64,000 nt of DNA from an uncultured Flavobacteriaceae bacterium (GTDB lineage Bacteria; Bacteroidota; Bacteroidia; Flavobacteriales; Flavobacteriaceae): NCBI GenBank assembly GCA_947502975.1, contig CANNBV010000002.1, positions 811,251-875,250 of the forward strand, in the 5' to 3' direction. Below are positions 13,301-29,277 of this stretch, in pieces (position 1 is the stretch's first letter; each line of letters starts with the position of its first letter). The notes below the pieces were generated by a model, which was not told the origin of the DNA, made no database searches, and saw only the letters and a program-made list of their open reading frames with translations. The position numbers and the translations under genes were made by a program.

Positions 13301-13454
13301 TTATGAAGTTTATGATATTAGTGGTAAAAAGTTAATAAATAAAGAAACAAAATCATTAGAAAATATAAACGTATCTAATTTGCCAAGTGGTTTTTACTTT
13401 TTAAAAATAAAAACAGATTTAGGTGAGTCAGTTAGTAAATTTGTAAAGAAATAA
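10338..13454 (+). CDS. Secreted M43-like zinc metalloprotease with PKD, GEVED and T9SS sorting domains
   Basis: 1038 residues. Order: signal peptide (1-24); protease domain with zinc motif HEMGHAFNLPH starting at His257 and a Met-turn segment NYMDYTGC; a PKD-like domain about 390-480; a first GEVED-type domain about 540-635 (NLEVWIDWDNSGTFD); two short Ig-like repeats about 645-790 (TATGGVSYQWDN, TASGGVSYSWDN); a second GEVED domain about 850-948; and a T9SS type A C-terminal domain (IYPNPVE ... SKFVKK). It should be exported by T9SS and digest proteins outside the cell. In pappalysins the motif is HExxHxxGxxH; here the Gly is Asn. A shared terminator follows. Confidence 0.88.
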   Translation: MKHYYLLPLVIFVFCLSCVNVYGQNIQPSNNVTNQEPNPNFCGTDFFHNIKMENDPIYRARHINAIQSIQKISSQKTILPGGILQVPVVVHVMHKGEAIGTGTNISDEDVKLGIQYLNNYWRKVSGSEGDGDGVDMKIEFALAVQDENGNCTNGIDRVDMSGVPAYVSNGVNRLNTDGIPDYSSGGGINSLKEYSIWDTTEYYNVWIVDEIDNKNCSGPGSFTAGYAYYASAHGQLYDGSVVLICSYLNESSSTWAHEMGHAFNLPHTFDGDDSNGDGIGDQCGDDGIADTPSHIRTSSISPSIYFDCNNNDANTCDALFNQITNPDTGFVRNTGTHQDHMHNYMDYTGCATEFTGGQRSVVTNALNVTRASFLTSPALTPPATATVYFTSTATSACLGNDITFYDESTCTPNTYTNTGYDNVTFAWTFDNGVDTPYTSTLQNPTITFSNSGTYDVTLEITNPAGTTSLTKTGNIAVTSGVAASCSISSTNNDNNFSNGVTNVSFNNLNNSTSTFIPASAMQDFTCTDNTDIYMGFAYDLDVTYQSRNDGGQNLEVWIDWDNSGTFDTNNTNGVNERVLIDNIPASTTNVASASITPPATAVLNTLLRMRVISDYNQAPTLCGNGFVQRADDYGVYVKPACTPPSAGITNNSGFVELTCIAPSISLTATGGVSYQWDNNKGIDPNITVTEPGTYNVIVTSADGCTDTESIIITENKPAPSAVITNNTGSTALTCSVSSISLTASGGVSYSWDNSLGNNASVSITTSGTYTVTVTAANGCIDTESITITNEAATPSSCTPSSFNDNGNFGCGVTNVNFNTISNATSTYVPPGAINDFICSNNTTLVVSTAYSLSIDYRARVDGDQNLEVWIDWDNNGNFELSNSNGNNEQVLIDNITQGTTGSPTVNVTPPSTTVLGVLLRMRVISSYNGAPNMCGSSTLQRIDDYGVSVNTTLSTNEVNGVNSGIKIYPNPVETHLNVSLGSTQAVKGYEVYDISGKKLINKETKSLENINVSNLPSGFYFLKIKTDLGESVSKFVKK

Positions 13455-13534: not shown

Positions 13535-14185
13535 TTAATTAATACTAAAAATATAGTTACGCTCTGCCATAACTGTCTTTTCATGAATACAGTCAAGAAT
13601 AAACTTGTATTTAGAGGCTATTTCATTAATTCTATTGATGTTACAATCCTCAGATAAGATTATGAGTACAGTTTTGTCTGAACGTTGTGATAAACTATAG
13701 AAAAGTTTTTCAAAGTATTCGAAGTTTTCACCACAGTACCATGCTTTTTCTTTTATGTTTTTTGCATTTTTGGGATAATATGGAGGGTTAATAAGAATAT
13801 AGTCGAAGTCCAATTTCTTAATATTTGTAAATAAATCTGAATATATAGCTTGAACTTTTAACTTGTTCTTCTCTGAAGCATCATTTAAAGCACTTAAAGC
13901 CGTTTTATTGATGTCTGAAGCCGTTACTGTTGCACCTTTTGATGAGGCCAACAAAGAAATAATTCCAGAACCACAACCTAATTCTAAAACTGTTTTATCT
14001 TTTAAGTCAATAGGTTTTATATAATTTAATAGAATTTTAGTACTTAAGGTAAAGTGTGGAGGGAATACATTTGGCTGAACTATAACTTCTATATTTTCGT
14101 AAACGTATTTTCTTGGTCTAGAAAAACGTTGTTCATATATGAATTTAAAAAAAGGATGCGTTATTTTTTTTATTAATTTTCTCAT
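13535..14185 (-). CDS. Class I SAM methyltransferase, MTS/HemK-like (NPPY motif)
   Basis: 216 residues. SAM-binding motif I is VLELGCGSGIISLLAS (about 66-81), acidic D91 follows, and motif IV is NPPYYP (133-138). NPPY normally marks enzymes that methylate a planar nitrogen (N6-adenine, N5-glutamine), which differs from the other methyltransferases in this run. The target is unknown. It is the last gene of the minus-strand operon; its start overlaps the stop of the upstream radical SAM gene by one base. Confidence 0.82.
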   Translation of the reverse strand: MRKLIKKITHPFFKFIYEQRFSRPRKYVYENIEVIVQPNVFPPHFTLSTKILLNYIKPIDLKDKTVLELGCGSGIISLLASSKGATVTASDINKTALSALNDASEKNKLKVQAIYSDLFTNIKKLDFDYILINPPYYPKNAKNIKEKAWYCGENFEYFEKLFYSLSQRSDKTVLIILSEDCNINRINEIASKYKFILDCIHEKTVMAERNYIFSIN

Positions 14186-15714
14186 TATTCAGAATAAAAC
14201 CCTTGAATTTCTGGTTGTCTGTATTTCCAAATTTTATGCAATGCTTTTATTTCATATGGATATTTATAGATTTGATTTTGATACCTGACTTTTGCAATAT
14301 TCCTTAATATTTTTTTCTTAATGCCTTTAATTCTAAAATCTGAAGCTGTAGGGTAGTATCCATTTAAAACTGTTTCAAAGTTCTTTATTTTATCTACCAT
14401 TTCCGGCGTTAACCATGGTGTTAACGGGTTTTTTCGTAAATCGAATTTTTCCCATTCAGGATTAAGCCAATCTTCTAATTTTTTAGGAAAACTAAACCCT
14501 GCTTTTTGAATTTGTTCATATAATTCAGAGCCTTCTGTAGCTACAGGGCTATATAGGTAAATAATAATTTCTGAATTCGGGTTTAATGCTTTAATCTCTC
14601 TAATAAAATTTATGTCTTCATTAATTTGATTCATTACTTTTTCTGAAGAATCAGCTGGCATACCCAGTACAAAAGAAAATTCTGGAATAATACCAATTGG
14701 AGCTAACCGTTTTGCAAAATCTTTAATGGTTTGTCCTGTTTGTGTTCCTCCTTTGTTCATTTGTTTTAAGATATCATCATTACCCGTTTCTGCTCCTAAA
14801 AAAATCATTTTGCAACCTGCTTTTTTCATGGTTATAAGGTCATCATCACTATATTTATTAATAGTATCAATTCTACCTTCCCCCCACCAAGTAATATTGT
14901 CGTTCATTACTAAGTTCGAAAATTCGATAATACGTTTTCTAGATGTAAAAAAATTATTATCATGAAACTCTATAGCATCAATGCCATAATTGTCTTTAAA
15001 ATATTTCACATCATTATATACAGTTTTAGCCGATTTAGCTTTCCATCTTCCATTATAAATGGGAACTACAGCACAAAAAGAGCATGTAAATGGACAACCA
15101 AGGCTAGAGTGGTAGGAGAATGTCCGTTTTCCTAAAAATGTTTTGCTTAGATAATGCTTTAAGTCGTAGAATTTATTAAGATGAGCGTAAGGCAAAGGAG
15201 GTAATGTATCTTGCTCTAATAATTTTTCTTTTGGTGTTTGTATAATGTTTTCTTTTTCATCTAAATAAATAATATTTTTTATGTTTTTAATTTCTGAATA
15301 CTTGTTATTTTCCAATGCATCTAGAAGTGAAGGAAAAGCTACATCCCCTGGACCATTAACAATATAATCTACAAAGTCTGCTTGAATACTAACTTTAAAT
15401 TGATTAGATGCAAAATAACCTCCCCAAATTGTAATACATTTTGGGTATTGTTCTTTTATTTTTTTTGTAAAAGGAATCGCTTGCTTTAATTGTGGTCCAG
15501 GCATAACCGTAGAGCAAAAGTATTTAAATTCACCAGTATCAAAATAGGTTTTAATTTTTTTCCAAGGGTTTTGTTCCAGATTACCATCAACAAATACAAA
15601 ATCGTATTTACCATGTATAGAGGCCCCTACTTGAAGAATAGAATTAGGGATTCTATGCTTAGCATTAGCACTTCTTGGGTTAAATATTAAAGTTTTATTA
15701 ATAATCTTTTTCAT
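14185..15714 (-). CDS. B12-binding-domain radical SAM protein (1 of 3)
   Basis: 509 residues. The N-terminal about 150 residues look like a B12-binding Rossmann domain (TIWGGYFAS, ADFVDYIVNGPGDVAFPSLL). The radical SAM core follows with CPFTCSFC (C207, C211, C214), then FHDNNFF and GAETGNDDIL. The C-terminal about 130 residues are unique to this copy and less like those of the other two. Proteins of this class often methylate unactivated carbons or phosphinates, or rearrange rings, but the substrate cannot be read. The last base overlaps the next gene start. Confidence 0.85.
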   Translation of the reverse strand: MKKIINKTLIFNPRSANAKHRIPNSILQVGASIHGKYDFVFVDGNLEQNPWKKIKTYFDTGEFKYFCSTVMPGPQLKQAIPFTKKIKEQYPKCITIWGGYFASNQFKVSIQADFVDYIVNGPGDVAFPSLLDALENNKYSEIKNIKNIIYLDEKENIIQTPKEKLLEQDTLPPLPYAHLNKFYDLKHYLSKTFLGKRTFSYHSSLGCPFTCSFCAVVPIYNGRWKAKSAKTVYNDVKYFKDNYGIDAIEFHDNNFFTSRKRIIEFSNLVMNDNITWWGEGRIDTINKYSDDDLITMKKAGCKMIFLGAETGNDDILKQMNKGGTQTGQTIKDFAKRLAPIGIIPEFSFVLGMPADSSEKVMNQINEDINFIREIKALNPNSEIIIYLYSPVATEGSELYEQIQKAGFSFPKKLEDWLNPEWEKFDLRKNPLTPWLTPEMVDKIKNFETVLNGYYPTASDFRIKGIKKKILRNIAKVRYQNQIYKYPYEIKALHKIWKYRQPEIQGFYSE

Positions 15715-16451
15715 TATAATTTTTGGATCAAATAATTTGGGTTTTTTGCAACAATCTTAAAATTAGAATTATGTTTTATTTCTTTAATGAATTTGGCACT
15801 TCCAAAACTCAAATGGTCTGCTGAATCGTCTATTAAAATATATCCACCATGTATCATATTCTTTGAAACGTTATTAAAGTCTTTTTTAGTTTGTTCAAAG
15901 CTATGGTCTCCATCAATATAACAAAACGAAATCTCTTTGTTTATCTTAAAACTTCTATTAAAAACATCTATGAATTCATTATTGTTTTTCCAAATGTCAA
16001 AAAATGCATCAGAAGTTAAATGGCATGCATTGGGGATCATATCAGGATGCAATAGTTGAACAGAATTAATATAGGCATTTTTAATATATTTCATGAAGCT
16101 TAGTCTGCTTATTTTTGGATTACCATCTATATGCGAGTTTTTATTTGTTTTACTGTCATTATATCCTTCATAAACCCAAGTATCACAACTAATAAAAGGT
16201 GTTTTTTGTTTGTTATGAGATTTTAATAGATGACATATTAAATTTGCAGATAAACCACCATAACTCCCTATCTCCATAATAATTCCATTATGAGGCATAT
16301 TTTTAATAGCATAGTCTATTAAATAAATGTTACCCTCATGTAACATACCGCCTCCTATTACAGATGATGGCAAACGCCTTATAAAGTAATCTTTAGGAAT
16401 AGTCTTAATATCCTTTCTAAATTGTAATGCTTTAACTATTTTTTTTAGCAT
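15714..16451 (-). CDS. Class I SAM methyltransferase, Methyltransf_24/CmcI-like
   Basis: 245 residues. The SAM motif is EIGSYGGLSANLICHLL (from residue 60) and a second motif FCYIDGDHSFEQTKKDF matches the IDGDHSY..V..D pattern of the Methyltransf_24 group, whose members often O-methylate sugars. IDDSADH near residue 207 may bind a metal. This points to a glycan O-methyltransferase, by inference. It shares one base with the downstream radical SAM gene. Confidence 0.8.
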   Translation of the reverse strand: MLKKIVKALQFRKDIKTIPKDYFIRRLPSSVIGGGMLHEGNIYLIDYAIKNMPHNGIIMEIGSYGGLSANLICHLLKSHNKQKTPFISCDTWVYEGYNDSKTNKNSHIDGNPKISRLSFMKYIKNAYINSVQLLHPDMIPNACHLTSDAFFDIWKNNNEFIDVFNRSFKINKEISFCYIDGDHSFEQTKKDFNNVSKNMIHGGYILIDDSADHLSFGSAKFIKEIKHNSNFKIVAKNPNYLIQKL

Positions 16452-16454
16452 AAC

Positions 16455-17279
16455 TTAAGTGTCTTTTGTATATGTTGCGTAATAAATTTTAGGCTTTTTT
16501 GAAAAAAAAGATTTGACAAAATTTTTAATAGGGTTGTATGAAAAAATATATATGCCATTTCTTTTAAAAAACAATTTATCATCAAAACTTAAATACCCTT
16601 TTGTATTTTTATACAGTAGGGGAATACCATAGCTTTTTTTGAAATCGTTATTTGTTTTTTCAAGTTGCTTTTTTGCTATAATGGGGTTTTTATAAAATGC
16701 TAAACCTGTAAATAGAATAGTCCCATTTGTACTTAATATTTTTTTTGCATCCTCAAATACTTTTTGTGGATTTTGAAAAAAAGCCCAATTCCTATTAAAT
16801 ATAATTAAATCAAATGCTTCCTGAATCCTAAAAATTTCATCAGGATATAATTGAATAGATATGTATTTTGAGTTATAATACTTATTAGCCCCTAAGCCAT
16901 CGTACTTGTCAGTAAATAAATCTAAAGCGACAAGTTGATGATTCTTTTTTGTTAAATAATTAGAAAGCCACCCATTCCATGCGCCGACATCTAAAATCTT
17001 TAAATTTGTTTTACCTTCTATTGTTTTGTCAATAAACTTAATATCTTTCTGTCTTTCCAACCATTGGGAAGTATGCATTGAAAAGGGTAAGTTTTCATAG
17101 AGTTTTGTGTTTGTAATTTTTAATTTATTTAAACCTCTATAGGCTTCAAAACTTTTTAGAAAATAATTTACTTGTTGAGAATCCTCGTCACTAATTAAGT
17201 TATAAATACCATCGAGGTGATAGTTTTCTAAATCATTTAAAGATAAAAAAACCTTGTTATTTGGATGCCATATTTTCAT
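16455..17279 (-). CDS. Class I SAM methyltransferase (Methyltransf_11-like)
   Basis: 274 residues. Motif I is ILDVGAWNGWLSNYL (95-109) and motif II is LVALDLF. FDLIIFNRNWAFFQNPQKVFEDAKKILSTNGTILFTG is split over the usual motif IV to VI region. The N-terminal 80 residues (WHPNNKVFLSLNDLENYHL) precede the fold and may bind substrate. The start lies inside the 3' end of the flippase gene (23-base overlap), so translation is likely coupled. Confidence 0.8.
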   Translation of the reverse strand: MKIWHPNNKVFLSLNDLENYHLDGIYNLISDEDSQQVNYFLKSFEAYRGLNKLKITNTKLYENLPFSMHTSQWLERQKDIKFIDKTIEGKTNLKILDVGAWNGWLSNYLTKKNHQLVALDLFTDKYDGLGANKYYNSKYISIQLYPDEIFRIQEAFDLIIFNRNWAFFQNPQKVFEDAKKILSTNGTILFTGLAFYKNPIIAKKQLEKTNNDFKKSYGIPLLYKNTKGYLSFDDKLFFKRNGIYIFSYNPIKNFVKSFFSKKPKIYYATYTKDT

Positions 17280-18405
17280 GTCTCGATTTATAAATGATTA
17301 ACATAACACACTGTGTTATAAAAACACTTAGTAATGCTCCGGATATTCCTAAATATCTTATAAATATAAATGTTGAAATCAAATTTAATAGCGCCCCAAA
17401 AAAATTGATTTTCATTAACATAACTTCCTTTTTGTATCTGTAATACATCATTATATCAACTATGAAAAAATAAGTTGGCAAGGCAGATAGCCCTCCATAA
17501 ATATAAAAGATTAATGGTAACTTCAAATGCATTATGACTTCTAAAATTAGATAAGTTGCAGAGGTCCCAAATACTACTAAGGGTAATGATGTTATTGATA
17601 ATATTTTTTTAATTTTTTTAATAACCTTTTTGTTTACTCTATAAATATGTTTACTATAGGGAGAAATAATTAAATAGGAAATAGATTGGAGTAACAAAAA
17701 TGCTGTAGTCCCTATTTGATACTCAGAAATATGATCTTTTGTAACAGTTAGATTTACAATGTATAAATCTATTTTTGAAGCCATCCATCCACTAAATAAT
17801 ATTAAGAAGAAAGATAAAGAATCTTTGAGCTCTTTTATTGAAAAATTAATATGATTTAATGAAAAATGATCTTTAATAAAATAAGCCAGAATACAAATTT
17901 TAAATAAGTATGAGATGCAAAAAGCATAAATTAAAGTCTCAAGGTTATATTCTGATATATAAATAAGAATTGCTATAATTAAAAGAAATCCTATAACTTC
18001 TGTGATAAGTTGTAGTAAAAATTTTTGATTGTAAATAATTAAACTATCAAAACTCTGATAAATAAAAAGGAGTAATAGTAGGCTAAAACTAGCCATAGCT
18101 ATATTAAAAGGAAAAACTAAAAACAGAACCAGAGATAATAATAACAATACAGATCTGCTAATGATATTTTTTGTAAAATATTTTGATATTTGAGATGGGA
18201 AATCACTATAAGACCTAAGTAAATATTCTTTATTTCCAAACCCACAAATAAATGCTAAAAAAAGAATCCATGTGAGATAATATATAAACTCTCCCCAATC
18301 TGTTTTTCCAAAATAACTAATACCCAACAGTGATATAATAAAACTAAAAACAGGAATAGAAAAACTCCTAAGAATATTTAATATGACTTTAAAAATTTTA
18401 TTCAT
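17257..18405 (-). CDS. Flippase-like polytopic membrane protein (Wzx/oligosaccharide flippase family)
   Basis: 382 residues and about 10-11 hydrophobic segments, opening with SFSIPVFSFIISLLGISYFGKTDWGEFIYY, as in polysaccharide-biosynthesis (Wzx-like) membrane proteins. It is shorter than the usual 420-480 residues, so it may lack the last helices. The expected role is flipping a lipid-linked glycan across the inner membrane. It overlaps the upstream GT87-like gene by 8 bases and the downstream methyltransferase by 23. The region is strongly A+T-rich, suggesting transfer. Confidence 0.75.
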   Translation of the reverse strand: MNKIFKVILNILRSFSIPVFSFIISLLGISYFGKTDWGEFIYYLTWILFLAFICGFGNKEYLLRSYSDFPSQISKYFTKNIISRSVLLLLSLVLFLVFPFNIAMASFSLLLLLFIYQSFDSLIIYNQKFLLQLITEVIGFLLIIAILIYISEYNLETLIYAFCISYLFKICILAYFIKDHFSLNHINFSIKELKDSLSFFLILFSGWMASKIDLYIVNLTVTKDHISEYQIGTTAFLLLQSISYLIISPYSKHIYRVNKKVIKKIKKILSITSLPLVVFGTSATYLILEVIMHLKLPLIFYIYGGLSALPTYFFIVDIMMYYRYKKEVMLMKINFFGALLNLISTFIFIRYLGISGALLSVFITQCVMLIIYKSRHENMASK

Positions 18406-19957
18406 GCCTTAGTTTAATGGTATGCAATTGATAAAATCCAATTCCTATGTTTTTATCTGATAAAAAGATTATTTCGTTATTTAATAATAAGGGCTTTAAT
18501 TTATTGCTATTGTCAAAAGTGAGTTGTTCATTTTTATAAAATATTTGATTGTTTTTTATAGAAACACTAGTGCTATCTATGCTAGTTATCGACAGATTAA
18601 AACTGTTTGTGTTTCTTCCATTTTCATTCCAAAAAGAGTAATAAATTGAGTTGCTTATTAATGAATAATTATAGGTTAATATTGGAGTTTTATAGGCCAA
18701 ATACGATTCATTTGTTTTAGTAATCGAATTAATAGAAAAAGAATAACCTATAGTGAGAATTAATCCTAACCCAAAGATGAGCTTTAAGTTAATTTTGTCT
18801 TTGTACAGATATAAAATTAATATGAACATTAAAATTAAAGCAAATAGTTTTAAATAATTAAAAGGAAACAGGTCGGTTTTTATAAGCGACACGTTACATA
18901 TAAAAAATATTAAAAGTATCTGTACGATTTTAGTTTTTTGAGTTGATAAGCTTCTACAAATTATAAAGTATAAAAATATGAGCATGATAGCAGAATATGT
19001 GCTGCCATATGGTGACAGAATAATACTAGCCATAATCCAGATGGAAAACACCAACATATCTTTTTTAATATTTTTTGACAAAAAGAACAATACTCCAAAA
19101 ACGATTATTTTAAAATAAAAGATTAGATTTTTAAATAATAAAGGTGAATTAAATAGAGGGTTTTTATTTTCTATGTTATCATAAACTAAAAGCCTTTTGA
19201 GAAACATAAAAACAGATTTATAGTTGTCTACATAAGCTCCTGCTATCTCCCCATTTGTAGCTCTTGGTAAGACTTTATTAAAGTAGAACTCCCAAATTTC
19301 GTATCCATTTATGCCAATTAAAATAAATAGCATAATAGCACAGGTTAAAAACAAAAAAACACAAGCTTTATATTGTTTTTTAATAACTAAAAAAGCAAAT
19401 AAAATTATTGGGAAAACTTTTAAAAAAATAGCTATAGACCATAAAAGAGACATAGTTTTATAATACCTCTTTTTGTAGGCTAAAAAACCCTCAGATAAAA
19501 GAAAGAATAAGAGAAAATATATTTGCCCAAATAATAAGTTGTTCTTTAAAGGGATAAAGAAGATCAAAGGGAGTATTATAATATATTCATATTTAATTTG
19601 AAAATGCTTAAACAACCTAATTATAGCAATGAAGAATAGTAATACACTTAAAATATTAAATACTAGTTTAGATATTGCTAGTGGTAGTAATGTAAAAGGT
19701 GTAAAAACAAAAGCTAAAAATGGTGTATTTGGGGCATAACTGGAAAATATTTGATTATAACCCAAATCGTGTATAGCTGCATTAAAAAAATATGGAAAAT
19801 AAATATCTGAAGTAAATTGACCTTCTCTAAAAAAAAGGCCTCCAAAATAGTAATTAGAAAAATCATGAATTTGAAAGTGAAATGCTTTAAAAACATATAC
19901 TATGCAGAATAATAAAAGTGGAATAAAAGGATGATATTTTTTTAAGTAAGCATACAT
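18398..19957 (-). CDS. Polytopic glycosyltransferase, GT87/DUF2029-like
   Basis: 519 residues with about ten transmembrane segments and a C-terminal periplasmic-looking part (from about residue 420). The N-terminal loop after helix 1 has FHDFSNYYFGG and, later, YAPNTPFLAFVFTPFTLLP, the DF(x)xYY..., YPP(x)...P-type layout of GT87 (polyprenyl-phosphate-sugar dependent) enzymes; the conserved Asp would be in HDFSNYY. It probably adds a sugar on the outer face of the membrane. It shares one base with the GT2 gene upstream, the natural source of a polyprenyl-phosphate sugar donor. Confidence 0.7.
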   Translation of the reverse strand: MYAYLKKYHPFIPLLLFCIVYVFKAFHFQIHDFSNYYFGGLFFREGQFTSDIYFPYFFNAAIHDLGYNQIFSSYAPNTPFLAFVFTPFTLLPLAISKLVFNILSVLLFFIAIIRLFKHFQIKYEYIIILPLIFFIPLKNNLLFGQIYFLLFFLLSEGFLAYKKRYYKTMSLLWSIAIFLKVFPIILFAFLVIKKQYKACVFLFLTCAIMLFILIGINGYEIWEFYFNKVLPRATNGEIAGAYVDNYKSVFMFLKRLLVYDNIENKNPLFNSPLLFKNLIFYFKIIVFGVLFFLSKNIKKDMLVFSIWIMASIILSPYGSTYSAIMLIFLYFIICRSLSTQKTKIVQILLIFFICNVSLIKTDLFPFNYLKLFALILMFILILYLYKDKINLKLIFGLGLILTIGYSFSINSITKTNESYLAYKTPILTYNYSLISNSIYYSFWNENGRNTNSFNLSITSIDSTSVSIKNNQIFYKNEQLTFDNSNKLKPLLLNNEIIFLSDKNIGIGFYQLHTIKLRHE

Positions 19958-20703
19958 TAATTATTACTTAAGAATCTAAAGTTATATACTCCAATTTTTT
20001 GAAAAAAGTAACTTAATGATACCCGTAAACATCCTAATCCATATACAACACTTCTTCTAAAATTAATTGAAGAAGCTTCTTTAAAGTATCTGGCAGGACA
20101 AGAAATTTCACCAATCCTGGCTTTTTTATAACAGCACTGTGCCAATAATTCGTTATCAAAAATAAAATCGTCAGAGTTGTTTTGATAATTAATAGATTTT
20201 AATAGAGCTGCGTTAAATGCTCTATATCCAGTATGATATTCGGATAATTTTTGATTCATTAACATATTTTGAATACATGTCAATACTCTATTGGAGATGT
20301 ATTTGTAAACAGGCATACCACCAGATAAAGCGCCTTTACTTAAAATCCTTGAACCTAATATGAGATCATACACATCATTAGAAATCAAAGAACTCATAGC
20401 AGAAATAAGTTTAGGATTGTATTGGTAATCTGGGTGTAACATGACAATAATATCAGCCTTGAGTTCTAAAGCCTTATTATAACAGGTTTTTTGATTGGCT
20501 CCATAACCTCTATTGGAATCATGTTTAAGAATATACTCAATCCCAATATTTCTTGCAACTTCAACAGTCTTGTCAGTACTTTTGTCGTCAGTCAAGATAA
20601 CATCATCTACAACATCAAAAGGAATGTCTTTGTATGTTTTTTCTAGGGTTTTTTCAGCGTTAAATGCAGGAAGTATGACAATTATTTTTTTATTATCTAA
20701 CAT
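19957..20703 (-). CDS. Glycosyltransferase family 2, dolichyl/polyprenyl-phosphate sugar synthase-like
   Basis: 248 residues. N-terminal IIVILPAFNAEKTLEKTYKDIP and DVILTDDKSTDKTVEVA are typical GT2 nucleotide-sugar binding segments; MLHPDYQY supplies the DxD-like acidic position; DFIFDNELLAQC and SCPARYFKEASSINF are the acceptor and C-terminal elements seen in DPM/ArnC-like enzymes. There is no C-terminal membrane pair, so it is probably peripheral. By inference it makes a polyprenyl-phosphate sugar used by the GT87-like protein next to it. Confidence 0.82.
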   Translation of the reverse strand: MLDNKKIIVILPAFNAEKTLEKTYKDIPFDVVDDVILTDDKSTDKTVEVARNIGIEYILKHDSNRGYGANQKTCYNKALELKADIIVMLHPDYQYNPKLISAMSSLISNDVYDLILGSRILSKGALSGGMPVYKYISNRVLTCIQNMLMNQKLSEYHTGYRAFNAALLKSINYQNNSDDFIFDNELLAQCCYKKARIGEISCPARYFKEASSINFRRSVVYGLGCLRVSLSYFFQKIGVYNFRFLSNN

Positions 20704-21837
20704 CTAATCAATATAATTAACTTCGTTAATAGATTTTTCCCTTATGCTGGATGACACTTCTAAGCTATTGTATGGTTCATAATGCATAACATCTTTTCTA
20801 TGGTATAGATCTCCCAGAAAAGAAAACTCTTTGTGTTTATGTGTTTTTAATGATGATAGTTTCATTTGTACTTCCTGTAAAGGAATATTCCATTCAGAGC
20901 TCAATCTTTTGGCTGAAGGCTCCATAAATGAAATGTATAATAACTCCATTTGAGTGTGCTCTTGGAGTTTATTATAATCAACCCCTTTGGTTAATGTTAA
21001 TTGTTTTTCAAATAATGTGTTTTTATAAAAAACTAAAGTATCGTCTAGTTGTTCATGAGACATGTAACTTTCATAATTTCTCTGAGGTGTAAATAGTGGC
21101 GAAATTTTACTTTCATGACACCAAATACATTTGCCAGGTTTTCCTGCTTTGGTATTCTGAGGGTTAGCAGAAAGTTTCCTTTTACCTGTTTCATCATAAA
21201 TGCCAAACTTTAGTTGTCCGTTTCCCATTAATTCAATGGTTTCAAATTCTAAAATGTTTCCATTTAATGAGTCTATTTCTTTCGAAATGAATAACTGTTT
21301 TAATCCAGATTGATTTGAGTATTCAATAACTCTATGCTGTAAAGACACTAGTGAGTTGTCTATTTTTCCTTTGTAAGGTTTTAACTGGTACTTAGAAAGT
21401 AACTCATTTAAATCTTTTGGAATATCAACAAATTTATAGTAGTGTTTAGATACTCCTATCAATAAAGATATGTAGTGTCCTAAGTCTAATGACTTATTAT
21501 GTTTGTATGCCTCTGTTTTTTTAATTTTATTATTAAGTTTCAGTATTGCCTGTTTTGTTTTTTCTTGAAACCCTAATTCTTTCAAGTTTATTCGTATTAA
21601 ATCATTTTTAACAGATATCCCAAAGGTTTTAGTGTTTGTGTTATATGCTCCTATGTAAGATAATGCCCATCTCAACCCTGTAACTGCATCATTGATAGTT
21701 TGAGTATCATGAGACGGATTCCATTTTAAGTTTATATTTCCTTCAAGTGAAACATACTTACTAGTTCTATTGCATGATAGAATATACAAACAGCTACTTA
21801 ATAGAATGATTTTAAAATATGTTTTAATTAACTTCAT
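20704..21837 (-). CDS. Unidentified lipoprotein with one c-type heme motif (CxxCH)
   Basis: 377 residues from ATG 21837. An in-frame ATG at 21870 exists, but the later start gives a proper lipoprotein signal with lipobox Cys22 (LYILSC). A single CIWCH motif (C237, C240, H241) lies in the second half and suggests covalent heme; MEPSAKRLSSEWNI follows about 70 residues later. I do not recognise the family. It sits between the glycosyltransferases and radical SAM 2, directly abutting the GT2 gene, so it belongs to the operon. It could pass electrons in the envelope, but this is inference. Confidence 0.65.
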   Translation of the reverse strand: MKLIKTYFKIILLSSCLYILSCNRTSKYVSLEGNINLKWNPSHDTQTINDAVTGLRWALSYIGAYNTNTKTFGISVKNDLIRINLKELGFQEKTKQAILKLNNKIKKTEAYKHNKSLDLGHYISLLIGVSKHYYKFVDIPKDLNELLSKYQLKPYKGKIDNSLVSLQHRVIEYSNQSGLKQLFISKEIDSLNGNILEFETIELMGNGQLKFGIYDETGKRKLSANPQNTKAGKPGKCIWCHESKISPLFTPQRNYESYMSHEQLDDTLVFYKNTLFEKQLTLTKGVDYNKLQEHTQMELLYISFMEPSAKRLSSEWNIPLQEVQMKLSSLKTHKHKEFSFLGDLYHRKDVMHYEPYNSLEVSSSIREKSINEVNYID

Positions 21838-21942
21838 AGATCGTATAATCTCGATTAATAACACAAACAAAACTTATTATAAAAAGCAAAGCTGCCAATA
21901 AATAAATGTAACAAAAACGGAATATTAAATTAATTGCTTTGC

Positions 21943-23334
21943 TCATATCGTTTTATACAATTTCATTCCAGTTTGTGCCAATATGGACTTAGTTTTTAAC
22001 TTAAAAGAAGTCATGGAATTCTTATTTTTTCCTTTAAGAATTTCTTTATGAAAATTGACTTCATTTACAATTCGACGTACCGCCAAATCATAAAACCTTC
22101 TAGAATAGGTCCTTTTAAAATCAATATCCCGGTCGGTTGAGGTTTCCCAATGTGGTTGTATTGTTATTTTATCTTCAATTTCATTATATAACGAAGTACC
22201 TTTAATAGGGTATGCCACAGTGATTGTAAAATGAGTTGGGTTTGCAGCTTTTAGATAACTTATAGTTTTATTAATATCAGCTTCATTTTCACCTGGGTAT
22301 CCAATCATAATAAAAGTACCAGTTTCCATACCTAAAGCATTTGTTTTTTGAATAGCGCTTTTTACCACATCAACATCTACGCGACGATCCATAGCATCAA
22401 TGATTTTTTGGGAACCACTTTCTGCACCTATCCAAATTCTGTAGCAACCTGCTTCTTTTAAGAGTTGTAATATTTCATCATTTAATCGCTCAGCTCTTGT
22501 AATACATTCAAACGGAATTATGGCATCTTGTTTTATAACCTCTTCATGAAATTTTTTAATCCATTTATGACTTACACTAAAAACATCATCTACAAACCAT
22601 ATGCTATCTGGGGCATAGGTGTCTTTTAGCATACGTAATTCGGCTGCTACCAGCTCTGGTGGACGTCTTCTATAACTTTGCCCATATACTGCAGTGCTAC
22701 ACCATTTGCACGTATATGGGCAACCGCGCTGTGTGCTTATGGTCATAGAACTTTTTCCATGGTATGTTTTCCATGTGTCTAAATATTTATCTACCGGAAT
22801 TGCGGTTCTATTTGGCAAAGGCAATGCTTTAAGACTTTTCATATGTAGACGAAGTGATGTTTTTTTTACTCTACCATCTTGCATATATGCAATGCCTTGA
22901 ATTTCATTGTAATTTTCATTGTTAGATATAGCATGATACAATTCTAAAGTTGTTTGCTCACCTTCTCCAATAATCAAAAAGTCTGCCCCAGTTTTAAGAT
23001 AATTCTCGAGGTTGTAGGTGATATCAGGACCACCTAAAATGATTTTAGGAAAACCATACTTTGCATCATTATTTAATAATTTAACCAATTGGATAACATT
23101 AATTTTAGTCATTAAATTGGTGTAGATAGCAACCGCTTTAGGCTGTTTATCTTCGATGAATTTTAGTTGAGTTTTTTGGCTATAAAATGTGCTATCAAAC
23201 ACATGGTTTTCTATATTATTTTCATTGAGATATGCCGAAATGTATAATATACCTAAAGGCGCATAAGGGCGCATGATTTTTGCCTCTTTGTCATCTTCGT
23301 ACAGGTAATATGCATGTGTAAGTATTATGCTCAT
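21943..23334 (-). CDS. B12-binding-domain radical SAM protein (2 of 3)
   Basis: 463 residues. B12-binding-like domain about 1-145 (YAPLGILYISAYL, IILGGPD, GADFLIIGEGEQTTLEL), then a radical SAM core with CPYTCKWC (C205, C209, C212), WFVDDVFS, WIGAESGSQ and GYPGENEADI. It is clearly paralogous to copy 3: PPLG/APLG start, GEGE, ALPLP, RGCP, GAESGSQ, MD and GETKDDIDKTIS versus GENEADINKTIS. The substrate is unknown. The start overlaps the upstream methyltransferase stop by 4 bases. Confidence 0.87.
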   Translation of the reverse strand: MSIILTHAYYLYEDDKEAKIMRPYAPLGILYISAYLNENNIENHVFDSTFYSQKTQLKFIEDKQPKAVAIYTNLMTKINVIQLVKLLNNDAKYGFPKIILGGPDITYNLENYLKTGADFLIIGEGEQTTLELYHAISNNENYNEIQGIAYMQDGRVKKTSLRLHMKSLKALPLPNRTAIPVDKYLDTWKTYHGKSSMTISTQRGCPYTCKWCSTAVYGQSYRRRPPELVAAELRMLKDTYAPDSIWFVDDVFSVSHKWIKKFHEEVIKQDAIIPFECITRAERLNDEILQLLKEAGCYRIWIGAESGSQKIIDAMDRRVDVDVVKSAIQKTNALGMETGTFIMIGYPGENEADINKTISYLKAANPTHFTITVAYPIKGTSLYNEIEDKITIQPHWETSTDRDIDFKRTYSRRFYDLAVRRIVNEVNFHKEILKGKNKNSMTSFKLKTKSILAQTGMKLYKTI

Positions 23335-24113
23335 TTCTTTATAAGTTCTATTAAAAAATGATCAGCATATTTTGCCCAAAAAGATTGGCTCAATAATTTC
23401 TCTATAATCCTGAGTCCATTTAAAAATGGTTTTTTTGCCAAAAACGAATTTTCAAAATAGGAAGGAGGAATGGCAATGCCTACTGGTTTTATCTTTTTGG
23501 GTGTAAATAGCTTTTTTGTTAAAGATATAATTTCTTTGGGGTTATAGTACCAGGTTTTCACTGAAACATTATTTACGTTTACAAGTAGATATTTATCTGT
23601 ATACCTTCTTTTAGCTTTTTTTAAGTTTCCTTTTATACCAAAATATAACTGTTCCCATATACAATGTTTAGGCATAAGTACCATAATTAGCTTAGCGTTT
23701 GGGTTTAGCAAATGTGCTGATGTATCCAAAAAAGCACTTAACTCGGGTTTAGACAAACAGTTTAATCCACCAAAATTTGAGAAAATTAAATCGAACTTTC
23801 TATTAAAAGAGTCTTTTGATATTGCATTAATATCCAATACTTCAAAAGTTAAATTACTTAAAGTGTTCTTAGATTTTGCAATGCGAATCATACTTTCAGA
23901 AACATCTGTAGCAATAACGTCATGTCCAAGTTTTGATAAGTAAATAGCATCTTCACCTGTACCACAGTTAATTTCAAGAATGGAGAGTTTTTTATTTATA
24001 TTGACAATGGAGTCAATATGGTTGTAAACAAATTTGCGTTGTGCCTTTCCAATCCTAGAAAATGTAAAACTAGAGTCGTAATGATTAGATGCTATGTCAA
24101 AACCAGATTTCAT
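23331..24113 (-). CDS. Class I SAM methyltransferase
   Basis: 260 residues. Motif I is ILEINCGTGEDAIYLSKLGH (from residue 46) and motif II VIATDVSE. FDLIFSNFGGLNCL is motif IV, and ALLNPNAKLIMVLMPKH-type strand 5 follows. It is close in pattern to ubiquinone/menaquinone-type and small-molecule methyltransferases. It is sandwiched between radical SAM 2 and another methyltransferase, with 4-base overlap downstream and zero gap upstream. Confidence 0.82.
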   Translation of the reverse strand: MKSGFDIASNHYDSSFTFSRIGKAQRKFVYNHIDSIVNINKKLSILEINCGTGEDAIYLSKLGHDVIATDVSESMIRIAKSKNTLSNLTFEVLDINAISKDSFNRKFDLIFSNFGGLNCLSKPELSAFLDTSAHLLNPNAKLIMVLMPKHCIWEQLYFGIKGNLKKAKRRYTDKYLLVNVNNVSVKTWYYNPKEIISLTKKLFTPKKIKPVGIAIPPSYFENSFLAKKPFLNGLRIIEKLLSQSFWAKYADHFLIELIKK

Positions 24114-25055
24114 TTATGTATTAGTAATGATTAAAGTGCCCCTCTGATACTTGGTCAAATCCTCAATGTTGATAACAGAATTATATTTTTTTATGATATC
24201 ATTATGTATTAATTCTGAATTTAATTCTTTTCTTACTCTGTAGTTTTCACCGATAAAATTTATCACATTTAAATTATATTTTTTGCAAAGTTCTAGATAG
24301 AATATATAAGATAATCTATTGGTATATGCTATTGAGTTACCTGCCCAAAAATTCCAATACTGATCTGAATATTTTAAAAAATTGAACTCAGAGATTGATT
24401 TGTCCTGAAAAAAACCTGGATTTGCAAAATGATCGATGAAATTAATCGTGTGAATACAAAAATGATCTTTACGTAAGATTTGTTTTGTGAATTGAAATAG
24501 TTCATTTAAGGTTTTTGGCGGAATATGTTCTAAAACTACCTGAGACGATACATAATCAAACATTTTTGAGTTTTGAATGATTTCATCGAATGAATAAGGT
24601 GCTAAATATTTTATATTTAATAATTTAAAGAGAGAGTCTAATGAATTTATTTTTTGAAGTTTATTTATTTTGGTTGTTATTTCATGTTTTTTATATATAC
24701 TTTTTGAACTAATTAATTGAAAGATTTCACTATTACTTAAATATTTAATTTGTTTTTTTAATGTTGAAAATCGAATGTCTTTTGTTACATCGACAGTTAT
24801 AATCTTCTCAAAACCTAACAATGATAAAGTGATAGCTGAAATTAATGAATACCCTGTTCCTATTTCTAATGCAGTTTTATTTAAAGAAAGGTTTATATTA
24901 CTATAGTTGAATTTTCGGATACACTCGTGAACTTGATATAAAGTAACATTGTAATTGTATTTTTTATTTAAAGTAGCAGGAATATGATTTAGATTGTCCC
25001 CTAATTTAGTGGTAGATAAATTTTTTTGTAATAAAGCCTTTACTTTCCAATTCAT
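24114..25055 (-). CDS. Class I SAM methyltransferase-like protein
   Basis: 313 residues. ALEIGTGYSLISAITLSLLG (from 62) is motif I, IITVDVTKD is motif II, and FDYVSSQVVLEHIPPKTL is motif IV. There is a roughly 80-residue insertion between motifs II and IV, rich in K, I and L. A start 6 bases downstream of the radical SAM 3 stop fits co-translation. The target is unknown; the HIP and GTGYS pattern is found in many glycan or natural-product clusters. Confidence 0.75.
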   Translation of the reverse strand: MNWKVKALLQKNLSTTKLGDNLNHIPATLNKKYNYNVTLYQVHECIRKFNYSNINLSLNKTALEIGTGYSLISAITLSLLGFEKIITVDVTKDIRFSTLKKQIKYLSNSEIFQLISSKSIYKKHEITTKINKLQKINSLDSLFKLLNIKYLAPYSFDEIIQNSKMFDYVSSQVVLEHIPPKTLNELFQFTKQILRKDHFCIHTINFIDHFANPGFFQDKSISEFNFLKYSDQYWNFWAGNSIAYTNRLSYIFYLELCKKYNLNVINFIGENYRVRKELNSELIHNDIIKKYNSVINIEDLTKYQRGTLIITNT

Positions 25056-25061
25056 AAATGG

Positions 25062-26495
25062 TTATACAGCTAATTTTTTTAAAAGTAATTTATCGTAAAA
25101 AGCACTTGGAATGTAGTAAACTAATTTTAGGATTGATTTAAATCTACCTATTTCAAAATGTTTTAGGTTATATAAACCTTGACTTTTGCGATATTCTTTG
25201 TGAACGTAGCGTTGCAGTTTTTTATAAAACTTAGAGCTGTACGTGCCCTTAAATAGCATCGCTAAATCGTCAGAATCTGTCCAATTGGCTTTAAGTTTAA
25301 GGTCATCTTTTACTTTTTCATAAAACTTTGTTCCAGGTAGAGGATAGGATACTGAAACACCTATATTATCAGGAACAAGCTCTTTAATCATGCTTATGGT
25401 TTTATCAATGTCGTCTTTGGTTTCACCTAAATACCCAAATTGTATAAAAAATGCAACCCGAATATGTTTCTCTTTAAGCAATTTTGTGGCTTCATAAATT
25501 TGTGATACTGTGGTATCCTTGTCCATAGCATCTAAAATAGCTTGAGAACCACTTTCTGCACCAACCCAAACTTCTTCTAAACCACTTTCTGCAAGAGCTT
25601 CAATAGTGTCTTCTTTCAATAATAAATCTACACGGCTTTGAATATAATATGAAATTGACAGTTTTTCTTTTTTAAGTGCTTTGTTGAAATCCTGAACCCA
25701 ATTGGGTTTTAAGCCAAAAATATCATCACACATCCAAAAGCGATTGACACCATAAGTTTCTGATAAATACTTTATATGATTTGTAATATATTCTGGAGAA
25801 TGTGAATTATACCTATTTCCATAGATTGGTTTTGCACACCAATTACATTTAAAAGGGCAGCCACGAGTGGTAGCTATATTTAAAGTAAACTTATGTCCTC
25901 CACTTTCCCAAATTTCTTTATAAGGGTTGATATCAATTAAATCCCAGGCAGGTAAAGGAAGTTCATCTAAATCACGTAATACAGGTCGTTTATTGTTTTT
26001 TATAATATCTTCTGCCTTTTTATAAATAAGACCTTGTATGGCAGAGATATCAGTATTTTTAACCAAAGCCATAGCAAGTTCCTTAAGCGTAAGTTCACCT
26101 TCTCCTTGGATAATAAAATCTGCACCAGCATTTAAATATTTCTCATAATGATCTGTAGAATCTGAACTACACACAACCACATTACAGTTTAAGCCTTTAG
26201 CAATTTTAATCATCTCGAAAGCAGCCTCTCTCATTGAAGTTAGACACATTTTTGTTAGATAATTAAAACCATCATCATAGATAACAAATAGACTTGGTTT
26301 TTTCTGTAGTAAAAATGGTTTTAGAAGCTTGGGATCATCTATAAGGTTAGTATCAAAAACACCAACTTTAAAACTACTCTCTCTTAATAAAGACGCTGCA
26401 TAAAGTGTGCCTAATGGAGGGTAAGGTGTTTTATTGTTCCATTGTTTGGAATCAAATTTGTAATAATATGAATGTGAAAAAACAATATCAAGCAT
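25062..26495 (-). CDS. B12-binding-domain radical SAM protein (3 of 3)
   Basis: 477 residues. B12-binding-like domain about 1-160 (YPPLGTLYAASLL, NVVVCSSDSTDHYEKYL, GADFIIQGEGELTLKEL), then the radical SAM core with CPFKCNWC (C213, C217, C220), WMCDDIFG, WVGAESGSQ and FGYLGETKDDID. It is the closest relative of copy 2 within the window, suggesting duplication followed by divergence. The classical DxHxxG cobalamin motif is absent, as in many proteins of this class. It overlaps the nucleotidyltransferase gene by 8 bases. Confidence 0.87.
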   Translation of the reverse strand: MLDIVFSHSYYYKFDSKQWNNKTPYPPLGTLYAASLLRESSFKVGVFDTNLIDDPKLLKPFLLQKKPSLFVIYDDGFNYLTKMCLTSMREAAFEMIKIAKGLNCNVVVCSSDSTDHYEKYLNAGADFIIQGEGELTLKELAMALVKNTDISAIQGLIYKKAEDIIKNNKRPVLRDLDELPLPAWDLIDINPYKEIWESGGHKFTLNIATTRGCPFKCNWCAKPIYGNRYNSHSPEYITNHIKYLSETYGVNRFWMCDDIFGLKPNWVQDFNKALKKEKLSISYYIQSRVDLLLKEDTIEALAESGLEEVWVGAESGSQAILDAMDKDTTVSQIYEATKLLKEKHIRVAFFIQFGYLGETKDDIDKTISMIKELVPDNIGVSVSYPLPGTKFYEKVKDDLKLKANWTDSDDLAMLFKGTYSSKFYKKLQRYVHKEYRKSQGLYNLKHFEIGRFKSILKLVYYIPSAFYDKLLLKKLAV

Positions 26496-27393
26496 AGTCT
26501 TGAAGTAATTCCAAATTATGTAGTTGCTTTAATTTATCATAATCCTCATTTAATCGATCAATAACTTTCCTTTGAAAATTTTGAGGATGATGTTTAGATA
26601 CATGCTTTGTAGATTTCATTGCAATTTTGAAATCTTCAGATTCTAAGTCACTAAATTTTAAATGCCATTTTTTAAGTGTTATCTTCCTTAAAAAGGAATC
26701 GACAGCATTACCAATAGGTGTATTAAATATTTTTTCTATAAACACAGATAACCAACTTTTTTTTGTCTCATTTATTATTGAGGTATCAAAAGAAGGGAAA
26801 TTTGGAAAATACTCATAGGGCCAAGTGTTTTCCTGCATAAAAGAGGTAAACGCTTTTTTGCCATATACAGGAATTAAGGTCACCATTTCGGTAGCTGTAA
26901 ATCTATTTTGCTCAGGAATATGCAAATAATCGCTACTAATAAAATAGTTGATGCAAAAATATTTTCTTGAGTTTAATAAGAATATTTTTTTGTAGAGTAT
27001 TAGCAAAGTCCTTGAAATCCATAATCTACCTGGTTTTGTAATGATGAAAAAATCAATATCACCATTAGAATCATAATATCCTTTAGAGAGCGATCCAGAA
27101 AGGCAAACACTTTCCACATATGGGAATTTCGCGATAAGTTTTGATACTTTAAAAGCTTTTGGCATTACTTTTTTTGCCATTTCGTTTCCTTTTAATCGTC
27201 TAGTTAGTAGAGAACGGTTATTTTCACACATAAAAAAATCTTCAATCTTGAAGATAATACCTTTTTTTAGGAGAATATCTATTTCTGTGTTTATGGCTTT
27301 TTCTGAAGACGCATTCGAAAATTTATAAATTTCCGCTTTAGTTAACGGATATTTAAAAATTGAAAAATACAATATGGTTTTTAGGGCAGTCAA
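26488..27393 (-). CDS. Nucleotidyltransferase-domain protein (MNT-like fold), first gene of the radical SAM run
   Basis: 301 residues. GSLSKG (100-105) followed by GDIDFFI (D112, D114) is the GSxxxG...DxD signature of polymerase-beta-type nucleotidyltransferases. Residues 1-60 look like a winged helix (LTKAEIYKFSN, LLKKGIIFKIEDFFMC). It starts at TTG 27393: the reading frame is closed by TAA at 27411-27409 and no ATG occurs before residue 55. It could nucleotidylate a small molecule or a protein partner. The C-terminal 100 residues (KHHPQNFQRKVIDRL) are of unknown fold. Confidence 0.75.
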   Translation of the reverse strand: MTALKTILYFSIFKYPLTKAEIYKFSNASSEKAINTEIDILLKKGIIFKIEDFFMCENNRSLLTRRLKGNEMAKKVMPKAFKVSKLIAKFPYVESVCLSGSLSKGYYDSNGDIDFFIITKPGRLWISRTLLILYKKIFLLNSRKYFCINYFISSDYLHIPEQNRFTATEMVTLIPVYGKKAFTSFMQENTWPYEYFPNFPSFDTSIINETKKSWLSVFIEKIFNTPIGNAVDSFLRKITLKKWHLKFSDLESEDFKIAMKSTKHVSKHHPQNFQRKVIDRLNEDYDKLKQLHNLELLQDYA

Positions 27394-27429
27394 TTTTTCT
27401 TTTTTTTCTTATTGTGTGGTGAATAAAAC

Positions 27430-27963
27430 TTACTTTTTCATTAAGTCAAAGTTAAAAGACACTTGTATTTCCTCAGCAATTTTTTTACTTACAATTTTAG
27501 GAATGTCTATGTCGTAGTCTGAAGCTAGAGCGATAAAATCTCCAGAAATCTTAAAAACTTTTTCCATTTGGGTTAATCTACAAGATAGTTTAAGTTCTTT
27601 CGATTTTCCATGAAAGCTTAGTATACCATTAATTGTGTAAGTTTCTTTTAAGTTTGAAATATCAAAATCTACCAACTTACCCTTGAAGGTTGCTTTTGGA
27701 AATTTGTCCGATTCTGCATAGTTTTCATTGAAATGTTCTTCCATTAATGCATTTTTAAATCGAAATCCTTTCACCAAAACTAATGCTGCAAATTCGCCAT
27801 TATCAGTATTAATAATTGCGGTTACAGTATTATTTGTTGCTTTAACCTCTTCAAAAGAAGGTACTGAAGCTTCAAAATCGACAATCCCAGTTTTTGTTAA
27901 ATATTTAGTCTGTCCAAATATACTGAAGCTTACAAATAGTATTAAAAATGCTAACTTTTTCAT
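27430..27963 (-). CDS. YceI family protein
   Basis: 177 residues with a signal peptide (1-18, ending FGQ). The body follows the YceI lipocalin-like pattern: a strand F(E)ASVPSFEEVKATNN, then GEFAALVLVKGFRFKNALMEEHFNENYAESDKFPKATF, then GILSFHGKSKELKL and a C-terminal amphipathic strand. YceI proteins bind isoprenoid or amphiphilic ligands in the periplasm. It is followed by the nucleotidyltransferase start only 36 bases later, with no hairpin in between, so transcription may read on into the radical SAM genes. Confidence 0.88.
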   Translation of the reverse strand: MKKLAFLILFVSFSIFGQTKYLTKTGIVDFEASVPSFEEVKATNNTVTAIINTDNGEFAALVLVKGFRFKNALMEEHFNENYAESDKFPKATFKGKLVDFDISNLKETYTINGILSFHGKSKELKLSCRLTQMEKVFKISGDFIALASDYDIDIPKIVSKKIAEEIQVSFNFDLMKK

Positions 27964-27999
27964 ATAATTATTTTAAAAATTTTGTTTAGAATACAATGT

Positions 28000-28374: not shown

Positions 28375-28385
28375 CTTTTCTTTTT

Positions 28386-29243: not shown

Positions 29244-29277
29244 AGGGTATTTTTTAGCTTGATTTTATATGAAAGTT

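Follow-up and report, generated by a model that had tools for sequence, protein, structure and literature searches.

A probable serotype-like surface-glycoconjugate locus of Flavobacteriaceae with fixed B12-type radical SAM ends and an exchangeable middle

Introduction

O-antigen and capsule serotype loci (Wzx/Wzy) are known for polysaccharides built by ordinary sugar chemistry, and together with the GtrABC and ArnC/ArnT glycosylation systems they are the cases with which we compare the locus described here, a run of 13 genes at positions 13535-27393 of a 64,000-nucleotide stretch of DNA, hereafter the window, from an uncultured Flavobacteriaceae bacterium (GenBank assembly GCA_947502975.1, contig CANNBV010000002.1, positions 811,251 to 875,250). 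Family 2 glycosyltransferases (GT2) of the type found in this run charge polyprenyl phosphate, and membrane glycosyltransferases of the GT-C type act on the outer face with these donors. The run also encodes radical S-adenosylmethionine (SAM) proteins of the B12 type; such enzymes methylate or rearrange unactivated carbon and, in some cases, phosphorus, and class B members of the AprD4 type do not methylate.

An initial annotation, made from the letters of the window, had read the run as a system for the synthesis and export of a methylated glycan or glycolipid. Here we show that the head and tail of this locus are conserved and co-inherited, and that its middle varies from cluster to cluster. 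The resulting structure, a B12-radical core with a glycan cassette between its ends, goes beyond the mix of genes first described. We consider it rather probable that this is a serotype-like surface-glycoconjugate locus, with fixed B12-type radical ends and an exchangeable glycan middle.

Results

Layout of the locus

All 13 open reading frames (ORFs) of the claimed minus-strand run are present, and the figures given for their tight packing were reproduced: neighbouring genes overlap by up to 23 bases or are separated by up to 72, and the widest gap becomes 105 bases when the second methionine of the lipoprotein g8 is taken as its start. In reading order the genes are:

g13, 26488-27393, minus strand: winged-helix and nucleotidyltransferase protein, opens the fixed head
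g12, 25062-26495, minus strand: B12-type radical SAM protein 3 (rSAM3), fixed head
g11, 24114-25055, minus strand: methyltransferase-like protein, optional head gene
g10, 23331-24113, minus strand: class I methyltransferase, fixed head
g9, 21943-23334, minus strand: B12-type radical SAM protein 2 (rSAM2), fixed head, paralogue of g12
g8, 20704-21870, minus strand: CxxCH lipoprotein, exchangeable middle, start probably at 21837
g7, 19957-20703, minus strand: GT2, polyprenyl-phosphate-sugar synthase-like, middle
g6, 18398-19957, minus strand: GT87 (GT-C) with about 12 transmembrane (TM) segments, middle
g5, 17257-18405, minus strand: membrane protein of about 10 TM segments, probable MOP-type flippase, middle
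g4, 16455-17279, minus strand: class I methyltransferase, middle
g3, 15714-16451, minus strand: class I methyltransferase (Methyltransf_24), middle
g2, 14185-15714, minus strand: B12-type radical SAM protein 1 (rSAM1), fixed tail
g1, 13535-14185, minus strand: small class I methyltransferase, fixed tail

The glycosylation block had been described as A+T-rich, and the GC content of the middle (15714-21870) is indeed 26.8%, compared with 30.4% in the head, 29.5% in the tail and 31.4% in the window as a whole.

Co-inheritance of the ends

Among 149 genomes of the same family, representing 148 genera, 10 have relatives of g13, and g12 orthologues (E-value up to 1e-60) occur in exactly these 10 carriers and in 0 of the 139 others; the naive chance of two identical sets of 10 in 149, kinship ignored, is about 1e-15. 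Full orthologues of g9 occur in six of the 10 carriers, a seventh copy being a fragment at a contig end (G112, an assembly 64% complete). The tail gene g2 is present in 6 of the 149 genomes, the same six that have full rSAM2 and no other, and rSAM1 and rSAM2 occur together in those carriers even though they lie some 6-16 kb apart (window coordinates). Across the phylum g13 is found in 28 of 345 genomes, with the matches in G431, G382, G228, G319, G267, G166 and G256 left unread. Of the eight genomes behind loci L024 and L026-L032, seven have g2. In all 37 neighbourhoods selected by g13 (17 plus 20, with L025 dropped as it shares a contig with L015), g12 adjoins g13 or sits a few genes away. 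The initial annotation would have abandoned the idea of a system had the orthologues been scattered and never together; they travel together in many genera and in two phyla, and the locus is not a chance assembly.

A short form of the locus, made up of the nucleotidyltransferase, rSAM3 and a methyltransferase, was seen in L018, L021, L022 and L026. Its methyltransferase has 516-517 residues in L018 and L022, with two methyltransferase domains in the L018 copy (Pfam), and the short form faces genes on the opposite strand, among them a phosphorylase and a GT2.

Fixed ends and exchangeable middle

Sixteen loci were mapped for comparison with the window. Eleven of them share with it the head g13-g12-(g11)-g10-g9 and the tail g2-g1; in the five others (G230, G283, G295, G436, G179) rSAM2 or rSAM1 is missing from the sequence covered, and the gene order of G179 differs. 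The window and the 11 loci with both rSAM2 and rSAM1 are called full clusters (n = 12), a definition that excludes the short form by design. Their middles contain 128 genes, which fall into 55 families by single linkage at 30% identity over 60% of the length, hitless genes under 110 residues being omitted. Thirty-two families have a single occurrence, the most widespread is found in 8 clusters, and no family is in all 12. Of the 66 pairs of clusters, the two from Aquimarina are the most similar in their ends, where six proteins average 75% identity, and they have zero middle genes in common (6 versus 14 genes). Some middles recur, that of G489 sharing 9-10 genes with G051, G019 or G492; the middles therefore act as interchangeable cassettes, of which there are a few types. 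In the window the exchangeable part comprises six genes, namely the GT2, the GT87, g5, the CxxCH lipoprotein, g3 and g4, and g11 is optional.

Protein families encoded by the window cluster

Most of the functions first assigned to the 13 proteins were recovered with Pfam. The nucleotidyltransferase g13 (PF01909, 26.0 bits, cut-off 21), the GT2 protein g7 (PF00535, 57.6 bits) and the GT87 protein g6 (PF09594, 77.9 bits) all score above cut-off, as do four of the five class I methyltransferases announced: g10 (PF13649, 58.2 bits), g4 (PF13489, 28.9 bits, cut-off 27), g3 (PF13578, 47.6 bits) and g1 (PF05175, 64.4 bits). The fifth, g11, matches PF13489 weakly (18.1 bits), under the cut-off of 27. 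The three proteins named as B12-binding radical SAM enzymes exceed the cut-off for PF04055 (g12 76.5 bits, g9 86.5, g2 49.8), and the B12 domain PF02310 (cut-off 32.1) is above threshold in g9 only (41.7 bits), scoring 22.4 in g12 and 17.1 in g2. The CxxCH motif of the lipoprotein is retained in g8 and four aligned relatives. As for the flippase, g5 has about 10 predicted TM segments and two of four scanned relatives match Polysacc_synt below cut-off; g5 itself has no Pfam match, and a g5 profile compared with the PDB returned nothing relevant. From its TM count and these sub-threshold matches, g5 is taken as a probable MOP-type flippase.

Comparison with NCBIfam was made for ten proteins (all but g10, g11 and g13), and none reached a cut-off among the matches listed, which for three of the ten were the best 25; g13 and g11 gave no NCBIfam match at an E-value up to 1e-6. 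No description of the locus was found in open-access PMC papers, as far as the part seen of their broad result lists goes. A match to a named cluster, the other outcome that was to count against a new system, was thus not obtained. Maturation of a ribosomally synthesized and post-translationally modified peptide (RiPP) was considered and rejected, as the RiPP families listed were all under cut-off; the search for a precursor consisted of noting gaps under 110 bases.

The radical SAM enzymes

The CxxxCxxC motif is invariant in 17 of 17 rSAM3 and 11 of 11 rSAM2 sequences, and in rSAM1 it was read in the window sequence. The closest NCBIfam relatives of g2, g9 and g12 are mostly B12-type radical SAM families, all below cut-off. 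The matches listed comprise the best 25 of 37 families for g9, the best 25 of 38 for g12 and all 23 for g2, and among them no named equivalog (BchE, HpnJ, HpnR, PhpK, BzaD and others) reaches its cut-off; g12, for example, scores 129.5 bits with HpnJ, whose cut-off is 577.6. HpnJ, HpnR and the 'lipid biosynthesis' B12 family TIGR04072 are among these neighbours. Relatives of solved structure include AprD4 and OxsB and also PDB entry 9ccb, for which the listing names no function.

A tree was built from 97 radical SAM rows from these loci, of which 96 are distinct, the rSAM3 of L032 having been entered twice. In it, rSAM3 (45 rows) and rSAM1 (12 rows) each occupy one side of a branch. The rSAM2 set requires 2 changes, because two distant L015 proteins were labelled rSAM2 by a weak best hit. 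As the tree was made without unrelated radical SAM families as an outgroup, and some of its joins are long-branched, the separation applies to the enzymes of these loci among themselves; Acidobacteriota rSAM1 rows other than L032 were removed by the length, motif and hit filter. The rSAM2 and rSAM3 groups each hold Bacteroidota and Acidobacteriota members, so that the radical SAM core is common to two phyla.

The only phage match for g12 was Streptomyces phage SF3 (two records), which in KT221034.1 encodes at 26253-27464 a B12-type radical SAM protein with 24.8% identity to g12 over 83% of the length. A phage or plasmid origin of the locus was rejected, PHROGs being empty for g13, g8 and g5 and g13 being absent from plasmids.

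The nucleotidyltransferase and the methyltransferases

The fold of g13 is closest to small-molecule nucleotidyltransferases. Residues D112 and D114 (DxD) are present in 17 of 17 sequences, as is N149 on the following strand, and E169 is also invariant; in the wider set, 4 of 37 nucleotidyltransferases fall outside the motif pattern used. The invariant N149 stands where the fold usually carries a third acid, an arrangement compatible with altered chemistry or with a binding-only domain, and E169 could serve as the third acid. Among the methyltransferases, g10 is found in all 12 full clusters, and g1 adjoins g2 in 11, with G102 as the exception, where g1 was not found. By comparison, g3 occurs in 3 of the 12, and g11 in the window, G148 and G489.

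Genes of the middle

The GT2 protein g7 has its nearest PDB relative in dolichol-phosphate-mannose synthase (5mlz, E-value 1.6e-7), carries zero predicted TM segments and is found in 7 of the 12 full clusters. In some other clusters a GT-C enzyme of the PMT_2 type takes the place of GT87, and 11 of the 12 have one or other of these GT-C-like enzymes, the exception being G102 and the case of G148 depending on 25% identity to g6. Each full cluster has one recognised exporter, g5-like in nine and of the ABC type in three, never both; identity to g5 is as low as 26% in G148 and 27% in G487. Since further unlabelled polytopic proteins occur in the middles, 'one exporter each' is to be read as one recognised exporter.

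The middles of relatives also contain polysaccharide deacetylase, GNAT and GT1 genes, and GDSL and carbamoyltransferase genes. That of G487 has an FkbM methyltransferase and a member of the capsule-synthesis family NKWYS, and that of G148 has a set of HAD, epimerase, PfkB/cytidylyltransferase, SIS and GT9 genes, which we read as heptose synthesis. A hopanoid pathway, considered for the phosphorylase, GT2 and deacetylase of relatives, was discarded: in NCBIfam neither HpnG nor HpnK was listed, and HpnB matched only weakly. None of the window's 13 genes has a Wzy or ligase family match in Pfam; Wzy proteins often lack a family hit.

The lipoprotein g8 is a candidate c-type heme protein by its CxxCH motif. 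It matches nothing in Pfam, NCBIfam or PHROGs, and its model (pLDDT, the predicted local distance difference test score, of 70, and under 50 at CxxCH) has no usable PDB match, which proves nothing. A g8-like gene is present in 5 of the 12 full clusters, and in the 149 genomes g8 had two credible hits, the window's own and G148, for which reason it was rejected as a core component; a third hit, in G116 (E-value 2.7e-4), contains internal stops. A protein of about 510 residues with several predicted TM segments lies directly before the CxxCH lipoprotein in two loci (L024:14533-16068 and L031:14513-16039), and Pfam and NCBIfam scans of the L024 copy were empty.

Counterparts in Acidobacteriota

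Proteins like g12 (E-values up to 1e-100) occur in 17 of 199 genomes of the phylum of locus L032, Acidobacteriota. Sixteen stretches were read (15 plus L032), leaving the matches in G624 and G657 unread. An rSAM2-like gene is present in 13 of the 16, a g10-like gene in 11, an rSAM1-like gene in nine, a SPASM radical SAM gene in eight, an amidohydrolase in six and a nucleotidyltransferase gene in three. Four loci (L166, L167, L168, L172) have the order rSAM4-like, rSAM3, rSAM2, two methyltransferases, rSAM1, amidohydrolase and SPASM protein, with two rSAM4-like genes in L166. Glycan genes stand beside the core in at least 4 of the 16 stretches. GT87 is found near it in L167, L168 and L169 (Pfam, 98-101 bits), the last of which also has a UDPGT/EryCIII-like glycosyltransferase, and in L160 the core adjoins epimerase, FkbM, PIG-L de-N-acetylase and GNAT genes (Pfam); the Pfam scan covered 9 unlabelled or weakly labelled neighbours, one of which had no match. 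These genes favour, only mildly, a surface-glycan reading. The GT87 proteins of this phylum are about 700 residues long, with a PD40/WD40-like C-terminal fusion (L167:17698-19803, L168:17305-19407, L169:10566-12677).

Chromosomal site

The run of the window sits between a gene that we take from its sequence to be carB, accompanied by a single M43 protease gene, and a gene for YceI (PF04264):

carB, 7268-10120, plus strand: left border of the site, outside the system
YceI, 27430-27963, minus strand: right border, outside the system, first of a common four-gene set ending at 29673

In 11 stretches from non-carriers, taken from the best DUF5777 matches and hence not a random sample, carB is directly beside YceI in five and within two ORFs of it in seven. 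Seven of the 12 full clusters (window, G148, G491, G493, G487, G051, G019) have carB on the far side of the tail, and the common site therefore holds for part of the clusters only.

The four-gene set (27430-29673, minus strand) encodes YceI, a c-type cytochrome lipoprotein, a DUF5777 barrel and an OB-fold protein, and it recurs elsewhere. It precedes the run in many carriers and was rejected as a part of the system, since DUF5777 is present in 64 of the 149 same-family genomes, 55 of them non-carriers, and the set adjoins carB where there is no cluster; the window's genome has two DUF5777 copies. Between carB and the cluster (10338-13454, plus strand) lies the M43 metalloprotease, which carries GEVED, PKD and Por-type sorting domains and whose relatives also stand beside carB in G019 (68%) and G487 (53%). 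In G019 the tail is adjoined by carbamoyltransferase, SxtJ-like and GDSL genes (L125:8153-12636, Pfam), and ORFs that match this set in size and order only were seen past the tail of both G051 and G492, and some of them in G083 and G490.

Discussion

Proposed function and the points against it

In the mechanism that we propose for a surface glycoconjugate, the enzymes of the ends would act in the cytoplasm by B12-dependent radical chemistry, with C-methylation the likeliest reaction and a related radical rearrangement the alternative, and would yield a conserved building block or carrier, which the nucleotidyltransferase g13 may activate or cap at a hydroxyl. The exporter would carry the product over the inner membrane; the presence of an exporter in the locus implies that the product is exported. 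In the window, GT2 would load polyprenyl phosphate with a sugar, which GT87, as a GT-C enzyme, would attach on the outer side, and, as happens in serotype loci, a swap of the middle would change which glycan is displayed. Of the synthesis and export of a methylated glycan or glycolipid first proposed, what we find is a co-travelling glycan locus with one recognised exporter; we infer C-methylation (C- or O-methylation in the initial annotation), the identity of the product and the flippase role of g5. More tentatively, the ends might make a radical-built carrier or acceptor of a new kind, distinct from the usual undecaprenyl-diphosphate glycan, common to both phyla and bearing exchangeable glycans; we hold this to be possible, with the balance of probability against it.

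Several observations weigh against a serotype-like glycoconjugate locus. The Pfam scan of the window's 13 genes contains no initiating phosphoglycosyltransferase. In three of the 10 same-family carriers (G024, G090, G113) the core consists of no more than g13, g12 and a methyltransferase, with neither rSAM1 nor rSAM2, and carB is not within the fetched stretch in 5 of the 12 full clusters. B12 binding by g2 and g12 is predicted from scores below the Pfam cut-off, and the call of g5 as a flippase is drawn from its TM count and sub-threshold matches, with no relevant solved structure. Additional polytopic proteins with no Pfam hit occur in G487 and G493 (c45), G490 (u324) and G492 (u725 and u512), and a second, unrecognised exporter or a polymerase may be among them. 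Finally, no exporter like that of Bacteroidota is labelled in the 16 Acidobacteriota stretches, where most of the unlabelled genes are unscanned.

Alternative explanations

The locus could also make a secreted, glycosylated small molecule, with the core building a scaffold, the middle varying sugars and tailoring, and the exporter secreting the product. The amidohydrolases and SPASM radical SAM proteins of the Acidobacteriota cores (six and eight of 16 stretches) and the UDPGT/EryCIII-like enzyme of L169 would suit such a natural product, as would the patchy spread of the locus (10 of 149 genomes), the small-molecule nucleotidyltransferases nearest to g13 and the kinship of the radical SAM proteins with AprD4 and OxsB. 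However, the window's 13 genes include no scaffold genes for polyketides, nonribosomal peptides or RiPPs (Pfam and NCBIfam), and the middles are rich in GT-C, deacetylase and GNAT genes, with one capsule-family gene, as is typical of envelope glycan; we regard a natural product as unlikely. An ordinary Wzx/Wzy O-antigen or capsule locus with incidental radical SAM modifiers would likewise show fixed ends, a variable middle, one recognised exporter per cluster and glycan genes, and its polymerases could be among the hitless polytopic proteins. Such a locus is quite improbable here, given that the genes that are conserved encode radical SAM, methyltransferase and nucleotidyltransferase proteins and that the window cluster has no phosphoglycosyltransferase, with four PF02397 genes elsewhere in the genome.

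Modification of a membrane lipid, by radical SAM chemistry of the ladderane, hopanoid or tetraether kind with glycosyltransferases adding head groups, would explain why HpnJ, HpnR and TIGR04072 are among the NCBIfam neighbours of the radical SAM proteins, but all of these lie far under their cut-offs, no isoprenoid or fatty-acid enzyme is found in the window cluster with Pfam and NCBIfam, and we give this explanation very little weight. That the genes are chance neighbours with no common pathway would fit the unconserved middle and the three carriers lacking both rSAM1 and rSAM2; set against the co-occurrence of g12 with g13 and of rSAM1 with rSAM2 it is strongly disfavoured and scarcely credible.

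Comparison with known systems

Taken one by one, the radical SAM proteins resemble the class B enzymes BchE, HpnJ, PhpK, AprD4 and OxsB in their CxxxCxxC motif, in their best NCBIfam and PDB matches and in an N-terminal B12-type domain that is clear in g9 only; they differ from them in scoring under the equivalog cut-offs and in forming, in a tree without outgroup, groups of their own (rSAM1, rSAM2 and rSAM3). For g13 the closest cases are the aminoglycoside nucleotidyltransferases (ANT, kanamycin nucleotidyltransferase, LinB), with about 14% identity, a likeness from which no drug modification is claimed, and unlike these g13 has an extra winged helix and an asparagine at the probable third acidic position. 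Judged by sequence, the window cluster shares with the three-component glycosylation systems GtrABC and ArnC/ArnT a GT2 of the dolichol/polyprenyl-phosphate-sugar type, a GT-C enzyme and a candidate flippase. In contrast to those systems, these genes are an interchangeable portion of a larger locus and the GT2 has no predicted TM segment, and in place of the small GtrA there is the 10-TM protein g5, which has no family match.

The closest likeness in layout is that to O-antigen and capsule loci: fixed borders, an exchangeable middle of lower GC content with glycosyltransferases, sugar-modifying enzymes and an exporter, and one chromosomal site in several genera. The layout works like a serotype locus, from which the window cluster departs in having no initiating phosphoglycosyltransferase; in addition, ABC and g5-like exporters alternate here, and the fixed genes are those for B12-type radical SAM proteins, methyltransferases and a nucleotidyltransferase. 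Where serotype loci build on ordinary sugar chemistry, the conserved part of this locus in Bacteroidota consists of three B12-type radical SAM proteins with methyltransferases and the nucleotidyltransferase, and some loci add further radical SAM proteins; of these proteins, none that was scanned reaches the cut-off of a characterised family. If the proposed function is true, the locus would provide a coherent group of radical enzymes that work on a single product, would be a probable origin of variation in the phage receptors of marine flavobacteria, and would make a new type of envelope molecule accessible to experiment.

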